Of a DNA stretch of 33,749 nucleotides, positions 12,597 through 31,547 are shown piece after piece. Position numbers and translations under genes: made by a program. The DNA is taken from assembly GCA_001725505.1 (NCBI GenBank), contig MEGM01000093.1, positions 1 to 33,749 of the forward strand. The letters run 5' to 3'. The notes beneath the pieces are model-generated. The model ran no database searches. It saw nothing but the letters and a program-made list of their open reading frames with translations, and was not told where the DNA came from. How positions within the stretch are numbered: the first letter of the stretch is position 1; each line of letters opens with the position of its first letter. The stretch comes from Rubrivivax sp. SCN 70-15 (lineage in GTDB: Bacteria; Pseudomonadota; Gammaproteobacteria; Burkholderiales; Burkholderiaceae_C).

Positions 12597-13028
12597 ATGA
12601 AGACCCCCCTTGCCGCGCTGCTGCTCGCCGCGGCCGCCCCGCTGGCCTGGGCCCAGGCCACGCCCGTGGGGCTGTGGAAGACGATCGACGACGAGACGCA
12701 TCAGGCCAAGTCGCTGGTGCGCATCGTCGACGACGGCGGCGTGCTCAGCGGCAGGATCGACAAGCTGCTCGACCCGGCCAAGCAGGACGCGAAGTGCGAG
12801 AAGTGCAGCGACGCGCGCAAGGACCAGCCGGTGCTCGGGATGACCATCCTCGACGGCGTGAAGAAGCATGCCGACGAGCCCTACTGGGACGGCGGCAAGA
12901 TCCTCGACCCGAACAACGGCAAGACCTACCGCGTGCGCCTGACGCCGATGGACGGCGGCAAGGAGCTGCAGGTGCGCGGCTACTTCGGCCCGTTCTACCG
13001 CAACCAGGTCTGGCAGCGGGTGGAATGA
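12597..13028 (+). CDS. DUF2147 secreted protein
   Basis: Signal peptide MKTPLAALLLAAAAPLAWAQA; TPVGLWKTIDDETHQAKSLVRI and GGKILDPNNGKTYRVRLTPMDGGKELQVRGYFG. Confidence 0.9.
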   Translation: MKTPLAALLLAAAAPLAWAQATPVGLWKTIDDETHQAKSLVRIVDDGGVLSGRIDKLLDPAKQDAKCEKCSDARKDQPVLGMTILDGVKKHADEPYWDGGKILDPNNGKTYRVRLTPMDGGKELQVRGYFGPFYRNQVWQRVE

Positions 13029-13030
13029 CG

Positions 13031-13108
13031 CCCCCACGCTCCCTCCCGGTCGCTGCCCCCCGAGGGGGCGTCTTGCTTCGGACCGGCGAAGCCGGGTCCG
13101 CGCAAGGC
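13031..13108. repeat. Multi-hairpin palindromic element, copy A (intergenic)
   Basis: GCCCCCCGAGGGGGC (13055-13069) plus CTTGCTTCGGACCGGCGAAGCCGGGTCCGCGCAAG (13072-13106); same layout as copies B-D. Confidence 0.8.
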
Positions 13109-13172: not shown

Positions 13173-15659
13173 ATGAGTCGATTTCTGGTCCGCAAGGTCG
13201 CCGTCCTCGGCGCCGGCGTGATGGGGGCGCAGATCGCCGCCCATCTGGCCAACTGCAACGTCCCGGTGGTGTTGTTCGACCTGCCGGTGAACCCGGGCCC
13301 CCAGGCGACGCCTTCGTCGTCGCCGCCCCCCGAGGGGGGCGGCTCGCCCGGCAAAGCCGGATCGAGCCAAGGTCCCAAGAACGGCATCGTCGCGAAGGCC
13401 GTCGAGGGGCTGAAGAAGCTCAAGCCCGCACCGCTGGGCGTGCCCGAGCTGGCGTCACGCATCCAGCAGGCCAACTACGAGGAGCACCTCGCGCTGCTCG
13501 CCGATTGCGACCTCGTGATCGAGGCGATCGCCGAGCGCATGGACTGGAAGCTCGACCTGTACCAGCGCATCGCGCCGGCGCTCGCACCGCACGCGATCGT
13601 CGCGTCCAACACCTCGGGGCTGTCGATCGGCAAGCTCGCCCAGGCGCTGCCCGAGGCGATGCGGCCGCGCTTCTGCGGCATCCACTTCTTCAACCCGCCG
13701 CGCTACATGGCGCTGGTCGAGCTGATCGCCACGCCTTCGACGCGGCCCGAGATCCTCGACCAGCTCGAGACCTTCGTCACCAGCACGCTCGGCAAGAGCG
13801 TCGTGCGCGCGAAGGACACGCCGAACTTCATCGCGAACCGGGTCGGCATCGCCGGCATGCTGGCGACGATGAAGGAGGCCGAGACCTTCGGCCTGAGCGT
13901 CGACGTCGTCGACGACCTCACCGGCAAGAAGCTGGGTCGCGCCAGCTCGGGCACCTTCCGCACCGCCGACGTCGTGGGCCTGGACACGATGGCGCACGTC
14001 GTCAGGACGATGCAGGACAACCTGAAGGACGACCCGTTCTACGCGACCTATGCCACGCCGCCGGTGCTGGCCACGCTGATCGAGAAGGGCGCGCTGGGTC
14101 AGAAGAGCGGCGCCGGTTTCTACAAGAAGGTGGGCAAGGACATCCTGCGCCTGGACCCGGCCGCGGGCGACCACGTGCAGGGGCAGCAAGCAGGCACTTA
14201 CGTGCCTGCGGGCAAGAAGGCCGACGAGATCGTCGCGCGCATGCTCAAGAAGCCCGCCGCCGAGCGTCTCAAGCTGCTGCGCGAGAGCAGCAACCCGCAA
14301 GCCCAGTTCCTTTGGGCGATCCTGCGCGACGCCTTCCACTACGCCGCGGTGCACCTGGCCGAGATCGCCGACAGCGCGCGCGACGTCGACTTCGCGATGC
14401 GCTGGGGCTTCGGCATGCAGCAGGGGCCGTTCGAGCTCTGGCAGGACGCCGGCTGGCAGCAGGTGGCGCAGTGGGTCAAGGCCGACATCGATGCCGGCAA
14501 GGCGCAGAGTTCGGCGCCGCTGCCTGACTGGGTCTTCGACGGGCGCACCGGGGTGCACACGCCCGAAGGCTCGTGGAGCCCGAGCCGCAAGACCTACGTG
14601 CCGCGCAGCACTCTGCCGGTCTACTCCCGCCAGCTCTTCCCCGAGAACGTCTCGGGCAGCGCGGCCGGCGCGCCGCTGAAGAGCGGCACCGAGGTCTTCA
14701 GGAACGACGAGATCCGCGTCTGGACGCCCGACGGCGAGGTGCTCGTCGCGAGCATCACGGCCAAGCTGCACCTGATCGGCCCGCTCGTCACCGAGGGCCT
14801 GCTGAAGGCGGTCGAGCTCGCCGAGACCGGCTACCAGGGCCTGGTGATCTGGTCGCCCGACGACGTGTTCTCGGCCGGCGCCAACCTCGAGGCGCTGATG
14901 CCGGTGTTCATGAAGTCCGGCGCGAAGGGCATCGCGCCGGAGGAGAAGAAGCTTCAGGACGCGATGCTGCGCATCCGCTACGCCCAGGTGCCGGTGGTCA
15001 GCGCGATCCGCGGCCTCGCGCTCGGCGGCGGCTGCGAGCTGGCGCTCTACAGCGCGCGCCGCGTCGCGCACATGGAGAGCTACATCGGCCTGGTCGAGGT
15101 CGGCGTCGGGCTGATCCCGGGCGGCGGCGGCCTGGCATGCATTGCGCGCCGCGCCGCCGAGATGGCGGCCGCGGGGAATGCGAACGCCGACATCCTGAAG
15201 TTCGTCACCGACGGCTTCACGAACGCGGCGATGGCCAAGGTCGGCACGAGCGCGATCGAATCGAAGAAGCTCGGCTACCTGCTCGACGGCGACGTCATCG
15301 TGCCGCACAAGGACGAGCTGCTGTTCGTCGCGATCACGCAGGCCAGGGCGATGGCCGCGAGCGGCTGGCGTGCGCCGGCGCGCGCGCCGTTCCCGGTGGC
15401 CGGGCGCAGCGCGATCGCAACCATCAAGGGCCAGCTCGCGAACATGCGCGACGGCGGCTTCATCAGCGCGCACGACTTCCACATCTCGACGCTGATCGCC
15501 GAGGTCGTCTGCGGCGGCGATGTCGACGCCGGCTCGCTGGTGACCGAGGAGTACCTGATGGCGATGGAGCGGCAGCGCTTCTGCGCGCTGCTCGAGCACC
15601 CGAAGAGCCAGGAACGCATCATGGGCATGCTGTCCACGGGCAAACCCGTGAGGAATTGA
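13173..15659 (+). CDS. 3-hydroxyacyl-CoA dehydrogenase/enoyl-CoA hydratase (FadB/FadN-like), carrying an in-frame repeat insertion
   Basis: KVAVLGAGVMGAQIAAHLAN Rossmann motif, SNTSGLSI, FCGIHFFNPPRYM, and crotonase-like C-terminus (RGLALGGGCELALYSARR); AAGGA SD before ATG 13173. Confidence 0.93.
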   Translation: MSRFLVRKVAVLGAGVMGAQIAAHLANCNVPVVLFDLPVNPGPQATPSSSPPPEGGGSPGKAGSSQGPKNGIVAKAVEGLKKLKPAPLGVPELASRIQQANYEEHLALLADCDLVIEAIAERMDWKLDLYQRIAPALAPHAIVASNTSGLSIGKLAQALPEAMRPRFCGIHFFNPPRYMALVELIATPSTRPEILDQLETFVTSTLGKSVVRAKDTPNFIANRVGIAGMLATMKEAETFGLSVDVVDDLTGKKLGRASSGTFRTADVVGLDTMAHVVRTMQDNLKDDPFYATYATPPVLATLIEKGALGQKSGAGFYKKVGKDILRLDPAAGDHVQGQQAGTYVPAGKKADEIVARMLKKPAAERLKLLRESSNPQAQFLWAILRDAFHYAAVHLAEIADSARDVDFAMRWGFGMQQGPFELWQDAGWQQVAQWVKADIDAGKAQSSAPLPDWVFDGRTGVHTPEGSWSPSRKTYVPRSTLPVYSRQLFPENVSGSAAGAPLKSGTEVFRNDEIRVWTPDGEVLVASITAKLHLIGPLVTEGLLKAVELAETGYQGLVIWSPDDVFSAGANLEALMPVFMKSGAKGIAPEEKKLQDAMLRIRYAQVPVVSAIRGLALGGGCELALYSARRVAHMESYIGLVEVGVGLIPGGGGLACIARRAAEMAAAGNANADILKFVTDGFTNAAMAKVGTSAIESKKLGYLLDGDVIVPHKDELLFVAITQARAMAASGWRAPARAPFPVAGRSAIATIKGQLANMRDGGFISAHDFHISTLIAEVVCGGDVDAGSLVTEEYLMAMERQRFCALLEHPKSQERIMGMLSTGKPVRN
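13298..13374. repeat. Multi-hairpin palindromic element, copy B, inside the FadB-like coding sequence
   Basis: GGCGACGCCTTCGTCGTCGCC (13304-13324), GCCGCCCCCCGAGGGGGGCGGC (13322-13343), GGCTCGCCCGGCAAAGCCGGATCGAGCC (13341-13368). Confidence 0.8.
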
Positions 15660-15663
15660 GCCA

Positions 15664-15738
15664 CCCCCGCAGCGCCTGCGGCGCTCCCCCTCGAGGGGGC
15701 GACGCCCGCGGACCGGCGGAGCCGGATCCGCGGCGTCC
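15664..15738. repeat. Multi-hairpin palindromic element, copy C (intergenic)
   Basis: AGCGCCTGCGGCGCT (15671-15685), CCCCCTCGAGGGGG (15686-15699), GACGCCCGCGGACCGGCGGAGCCGGATCCGCGGCGTC (15701-15737). Confidence 0.85.
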
Positions 15739-31471: not shown

Positions 31472-31473
31472 AA

Positions 31474-31547
31474 CCCCCAAGCCCACTTCGTTCGCGCCCC
31501 CCCGAGGGGGAGGTCGATGCCCTTCGGGTGGCCGGACGGGCATCGAC
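31474..31547. repeat. Multi-hairpin palindromic element, copy D (between pyrC and the NYN gene)
   Basis: CCCCCGAGGGGG (31499-31510) plus GTCGATGCCC (31513-31522) pairing with GGGCATCGAC (31538-31547). Confidence 0.75.

Follow-up and report, generated by a model that had tools for sequence, protein, structure and literature searches.

An in-frame, three-hairpin palindromic repeat in a FadB-like gene of Rubrivivax belongs to a family dispersed between and within genes

How did a run of palindromic DNA come to lie in frame within a conserved metabolic gene, and what kind of DNA is it? The question is raised by a plus-strand gene at positions 13173-15659 of the stretch analysed here (the window), 33,749 nt of contig MEGM01000093.1 from Rubrivivax sp. 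SCN 70-15, whose genome is a draft of 267 contigs. The gene encodes an 828-aa fusion of 3-hydroxyacyl-CoA dehydrogenase and enoyl-CoA hydratase, as judged from its Pfam domains (3HCDH_N, 3HCDH, and ECH_1) and from congener orthologues that share 76-86% identity with it. An earlier note on this DNA had called the enzyme FadB-like. This label holds for the type of enzyme and is kept here as fadB, with a correction to the domain order: the 3HCDH part comes first and the enoyl-CoA hydratase second, an arrangement that we take to be that of FadN-type enzymes and not of E. coli FadB. The adjacent frames were read by inspection as acyl-CoA dehydrogenase, thiolase, and enoyl-CoA hydratase, and the gene is thus regarded as part of a beta-oxidation cluster.

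Around the insert the protein reads FDLPVNP-GPQATPSSSPPPEGGGSPGKAGSSQ-GPKNGIV, where the peptide GPQATPSSSPPPEGGGSPGKAGSSQ occupies residues 42-66 (G42-Q66) and is encoded by a net insertion of 75 nt, or 25 codons, at 13296-13370 of the plus strand, delimited by orthologue comparison and by a covariance model (R1). The insert follows strand beta-2 and residue D36, presumably the acidic residue that binds the NAD ribose in Rossmann folds generally; a single-sequence structure prediction of this N-terminal domain returned a pLDDT of 37 and was unusable. The inserted DNA consists of three adjoining plus-strand hairpins, the first defined from the sequence and covariation and the other two from the sequence and the alignment of copies. 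Hairpin 1 (GGCGACGCCTTCGTCGTCGCC, 13304-13324) has perfect 7-bp arms that covary across copies, hairpin 2 (13322-13343) has a near-invariant core, CCCCCCGAGGGGGG, with extended arms, and hairpin 3 (GGCTCGCCCGGCAAAGCCGGATCGAGCC, 13341-13368) has an imperfect stem whose internal loop is conserved and whose outer arm is variable and covarying. The folding energy of the insert is -47.9 kcal/mol, with z = -3.3 relative to dinucleotide shuffles. Model R1 was built from 13 copies and matches the insert, itself one of the 13, at 13295-13370 with 80.2 bits (E 3.4e-13). Three intergenic relatives on the plus strand of the window were outside this training set: one in the gap that separates the host gene from the upstream stop codon (13028-13105, 25.2 bits, E 0.004), one just past the stop codon of the host gene and ahead of the thiolase gene (15662-15735, 31.4 bits, E 2.8e-4), and a weaker one at 31472-31545 (19.7 bits, E 0.039) with an exact core at 31498-31510. 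The 25-codon in-frame insert, the positions of its hairpins, and the two flanking relatives had all been described in the earlier note, and all are present. Both flanking copies are wedged tightly between neighbouring stop and start codons, a fit that suggests either some role at operon junctions or tolerance there.

An alignment of orthologues, which the earlier note had proposed as the way to look for a gap of about 25 residues, found the insert to be absent from 66 of the 73 orthologues in Rubrivivax genomes with a readable site. These have the ungapped form FDLPAKEGPKNGI (for example VLFDLPAKEGPKNGIV...LKKLKPAPLG), so the empty form expected in the note (FDLP-xx-GPKNGI) was correct. In genome G026 the same site holds a 26-residue insert that is a diverged copy of the element family, and the orthologues in G088 and G103 retain just the first element residues, reading LPAGPGPQASAS-GPKNG and LPTDAGPQTSGSKSG, respectively. 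These two short segments still start with the 5' end of the element and are read, as candidates only (n = 2), as putative scars of in-frame deletion. No orthologue was seen to carry the 25-residue segment without recognisable repeat DNA, an outcome that would have refuted insertion. An assembly or binning artefact might be suspected in a draft genome, but the diverged G026 copy was assembled independently, and in-frame copies are also present in the assemblies of two named strains, Rubrivivax albus ICH-3 (in UvrA) and Aquabacterium humicola RJY3 (in Lpd), leaving this explanation with negligible credibility. Between G000 and G026, dN/dS for fadB was 0.26 outside the insert and 0.69 within it, the latter value coming from only 27 codons; from the value outside the insert, the host gene appears to be under purifying selection.

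The element is not confined to this locus. Its core, CCCCYCGAGGGGG, has 57 matches on both strands at approximately 44 sites of its own genome, mostly intergenic, and the reversed control has none. The covariance model detects the three-hairpin family, again largely in intergenic DNA, in 66 of 81 Rubrivivax genomes (E up to 0.01) and in nine of 251 sampled genomes of the bacterial family (E up to 1e-5). When 85,462 species were scanned for exact matches to the subtype, nine stretches were returned; eight are titled Rubrivivax or Aquabacterium and the ninth, titled "Proteobacteria bacterium," is G022 of the Rubrivivax genus, and exact copies among these species are thus found only in Rubrivivax/Aquabacterium-type genomes. 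Members measure 64-79 nt and comprise three adjoining hairpins. The element had no Rfam match at E values up to 1, and identity with a known structured RNA family was rejected. Tandem pairs of the element occur between genes at L129/L155 (G021:C329:5740-5887) and at L188, and at L179 (G014:C143) a gene with a GGDEF-like end seems to have its C-terminal tail and stop codon supplied by the element.

The earlier note predicted further in-frame copies, and at least about 28 intragenic in-frame copies were found, distributed over 25 gene families in 19 genomes. The set was compiled from search matches and the stretches around them, the 90 best hits of the genus and those of the bacterial family being classified by codon-position G+C in their flanks, and all counts are lower bounds. 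The subtype with the fadB spacing lies within a transglutaminase-like gene of the same genome in the frame PPPPEGxxSPGxAGST, and in this frame within genes of relatives encoding Rep helicase, HtpG, LigA, M3 peptidase, UvrA, indolepyruvate oxidoreductase, a serine-acetyltransferase-like protein, a DUF4178 protein, malate synthase G, and an AMP-forming ligase. The covariance model added gamma-glutamyltransferase (Ggt), GMC oxidoreductase, acyl-CoA dehydrogenase, aromatic amino acid lyase, XdhC, GyrB/ParE, a beta-propeller protein, arginine deiminase, acetyl-CoA synthetase, a methyltransferase, and a UvrD-type helicase, hosts that Pfam confirms, the insert lying between two domains in XdhC and GyrB/ParE. 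Two further in-frame copies are antisense, in RarA and Lpd. Pattern matches with two to three mismatches and no clear in-frame host gene (G017, G023, G027, and G087) and two doubtful antisense frames (L164 and L147) were not counted, and several carrier assemblies are draft metagenome bins. The UvrA frame of R. albus (L102:1210-6951, 1914 aa) is apparently a double-length UvrA, with the element in its first half. This breadth bears on the notion that the fadB segment is a native low-complexity linker whose G+C-rich codons form hairpins by chance: such a linker would fit a peptide that is Pro/Gly/Ser-rich like natural ones in a very G+C-rich genome, but the segment is missing from most congener orthologues and the same covarying-hairpin DNA recurs in intergenic regions as well as in 24 further, unrelated gene families, so that the notion is already refuted and retains hardly any weight.

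Most intragenic sites were seen occupied in a single genome only. The HtpG site is empty in 16 congeners and one outgroup, the Ggt site is empty in 21 orthologues or paralogues, and LigA lacks the segment in G079, G016, and G076. In relation to solved homologues, the inserts of HtpG, LigA, Rep, malate synthase G, M3 peptidase, and Lpd correspond to gaps or weakly aligned regions. They lie between the N-terminal and middle domains of HtpG (about residues 213-216 in E. coli), directly past GDVIPEIV and ahead of the zinc-finger cysteines in LigA, immediately N-terminal of DEDNIDEERR in Rep, within a loop of malate synthase G, immediately ahead of GEPTL..HEFGH in M3 peptidase, and in a variable loop of Lpd; the UvrA alignment around the insert is only piecewise, and its exact context is less certain. 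Together, the comparisons of filled and empty sites and the solved homologues put the inserts at loops and linkers. In G022 the insert-bearing LigA is the sole LigA hit in an assembly that is 85% complete. This, with the purifying selection at fadB, argues that host proteins work with the insert in place, without proving it; since the evidence is the conservation of host genes (the single LigA hit and the dN/dS of 0.26) and there are no proteomic data, both translation of the insert and activity of the product are inferred.

We therefore consider it highly probable that the fadB insert is a copy of a small, non-autonomous palindromic mobile element of Rubrivivax/Aquabacterium-type Burkholderiales that persists in frame in genes. 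In the course of events that we propose, copies would reach new sites, as the filled and empty sites show, by means of an enzyme that has not been identified, and the majority would survive between genes. A stop-free subtype would survive within genes where the net length added is divisible by three and the site is a surface loop or interdomain linker; position and frame are observed in these cases, and tolerance is inferred. The insert would then be translated, again by inference, as a flexible segment rich in Pro, Gly, Ser, and Ala. Its arms remain complementary while their letters change, an observation that quasi-palindrome correction or selection for mobility might explain, and removal may proceed through in-frame internal deletions that leave short scars, for which there are the two candidates at fadB.

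The maintenance of the hairpins is apparent from the alignment of copies, in which 95.9% of cells are paired under the imposed three-hairpin structure and 29 cells have double changes, where shuffles give 7.5 (sd 2.2) and slid partners no more than 7. The outer arm of hairpin 3 is different in most copies with its complementarity kept, and copies occupying the same site (Ggt in G073 and G099, fadB in G000 and G026) differ in their arms, the pairing of hairpin 3 being largely kept. We infer that complementarity is kept either through correction of the quasi-palindrome as the DNA is replicated or through selection for mobility, two causes that cannot be separated; template switching has been discussed as such a correction for other coding palindromes (PMC6649704).

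The copies within genes also show a bias in length and frame. One length class modulo three accounts for 21 of 22 intragenic copies versus 36 of 59 intergenic ones (Fisher p 0.002). Of 26 sense copies, 21 (20 from the frame analysis plus the AMP ligase) are in one core frame and encode the Pro/Gly/Ser-rich peptide PPPPEGxxSPGxAGST, with four in a second frame (APRGGxxSPAEPD) and one in the third. The preference for one frame carries no p-value, because the copies are partly non-independent and the model was seeded almost wholly with copies in frame 0. Of the 20 copies in core frame 0, 13 have no stop codon in any forward frame, so stop codons alone are insufficient to produce the bias and were rejected as its sole cause. 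The peptide of the preferred frame is flexible and of low charge, and a second frame is arginine-rich; we infer selection against harmful peptides, with an effect of targeting not excluded. The APRGGxxSPAEPD subtype (L160, L161, L137, and L189) is found in G017, G076, and G080, with hosts that include the UvrD-type helicase and arginine deiminase. Both the retained complementarity, seen across copies and between copies at one site, and the strong favour for one frame where others are open would be expected if the element were kept for a function, either through mRNA hairpins that affect pausing, stability, or co-translational folding or through a useful peptide. We find this very unlikely, as the element is sporadic and mostly genome-specific, scars exist, dN/dS is higher within the insert, and quasi-palindrome correction yields paired changes without selection.

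How the mobile element we favour might move is less apparent. Proteins of the RAYT/Y1 transposase family (PF01797) occur in 34 of 81 genomes and are absent from several carriers of coding copies, including G065 (R. albus), G073, G089, and G099; beside eight PF01797 loci there was no exact element core and one near-match. This transposase was rejected as mobiliser, having no association with element carriers or element copies with PF01797 neighbourhoods. The alignment of copies has no terminal inverted repeat, and the 13-copy alignment has no invariant GTAG, with CGTC in some arms only. A 9-bp imperfect direct repeat, GGCCCCCAG / GGTCCCAAG, lies on either side of the fadB insert and lends only partial support to the earlier idea that the site of insertion is marked by the duplicated GP codons; it does not extend to the Ggt or HtpG sites, where nothing resembling the repeat is present. 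For this reason the repeat is probably microhomology, and a general target-site duplication was rejected, none being seen consistently across the fadB, HtpG, and Ggt sites. The fadB target, GGCCCCAAG, is similar to the element 5' end, GGCCCCCAG, and this likeness may, by inference, account for a preference for the site.

A comparison with described systems shows both likenesses and disparities. Rickettsia palindromic elements (RPEs; Ogata 2000, 2002, as described in PMC10969869, PMC2229807, PMC3733652) are single long stem-loops of 105-146 bp in obligate intracellular alphaproteobacteria; these small palindromes occupy intergenic DNA and also many unrelated conserved genes, in which they lie in frame and encode a conserved peptide that the host protein tolerates. 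The Rubrivivax element likewise is a dispersed palindrome found between genes and in frame in unrelated conserved genes. The RPE parallel drawn in the earlier note thus stands for the mode of working and fails for the architecture, as 64-79 nt in three hairpins does not meet the criterion of a single stem-loop of approximately 100-150 bp. The Rubrivivax element further differs in residing in G+C-rich betaproteobacteria that include cultured strains, and its arms covary, unlike those of RPEs, in which the identity of the repeats is reported to decay with time (PMC6649704). Wolbachia palindromic elements (Ogata 2005, cited in PMC2229807) are also bacterial protein-coding palindromic repeats, but from Rickettsiales. 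Enterobacterial ERIC/RU and Neisseria Correia MITEs form in-frame gene fusions (Delihas 2007, PMC2759123, PMC2229807) and are similarly small mobile repeats with open frames fused to genes; unlike the Rubrivivax element, in which neither feature is evident, these MITEs end in inverted repeats and are often flanked by target-site duplications. REP/BIME elements and GTAG/CGTC-tagged palindromes are short imperfect hairpins, mostly extragenic (PMC3733652), which are resembled in the many dispersed intergenic copies and the imperfect, REP-like stem of hairpin 3; no link to a RAYT-type transposase was seen here, and a constant tag was not evident in the 13 aligned copies, some of whose arms do carry CGTC. 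In nematomorph mitochondria, coding inverted repeats are kept complementary and template switching has been proposed (PMC6649704), but those repeats are far longer, lie in mitochondrial genes, and form no dispersed bacterial family. By analogy, and without evidence of homology, the Rubrivivax element is a putative protein-coding palindromic element that is RPE-like in working and different in architecture.

In-frame palindromic elements have so far come mainly from Rickettsia, Wolbachia, and a few other bacteria (PMC10969869, PMC2229807, PMC2759123, PMC3733652). A 2002 title called them unique to Rickettsia (PMC10969869), and a 2024 review considered a similar process in other prokaryotes merely conceivable (PMC10969869). 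Our literature search, which left most subscription journals outside its scope, found no earlier account for Rubrivivax, Comamonadaceae, or Burkholderiales. A large family in G+C-rich betaproteobacteria would make the conversion of selfish DNA into protein segments more general than the Rickettsiales, and approximately 28 natural insertions with empty orthologues and scars, in thoroughly studied enzymes such as LigA, HtpG, UvrA, and malate synthase, would be a resource on insertion tolerance that is also usable for the co-evolution of hairpin arms.

Some sites are filled alike in distant lineages. GMC oxidoreductase carries the element at one common site in two genera (G021 and G280; L158 and L302), Ggt does so in G073 and G099 (L157 and L165), and element-bearing fadB alleles are scattered on the fadB-like gene tree. 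A single origin of the fadB insert was rejected, as these alleles do not group, with transfer remaining possible; because of this scatter, recurrent insertion at the site and horizontal exchange of segments between lineages cannot be told apart, and either may apply. The shared sites in fadB, Ggt, and GMC oxidoreductase could be taken more broadly to mean that many copies reached their sites within gene segments that were filled beforehand and were passed on by horizontal transfer and recombination, and not by movement of the element to each site. As a general account this seems unlikely, since the 25 gene families carrying the element require many original insertions and most sites are filled in one genome only. 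A stronger form of the mobile-element reading, to which we attach only tentative and limited belief, holds that the element is adapted to coding sequence: a stop-free subtype would have evolved for insertion in one phase with a benign linker as its product, its preferred sites being hit again in distant lineages (fadB, Ggt, and GMC oxidoreductase) and its hairpins kept perfect through lasting mobility. Separately from the element, the fadB genes of G035, G084, and G099 (L003, L324, and L325) have at the same place a different, mutually similar 10-aa in-frame insert, KDxDGxGxPxS, and the lineages that carry it do not group on the fadB tree.
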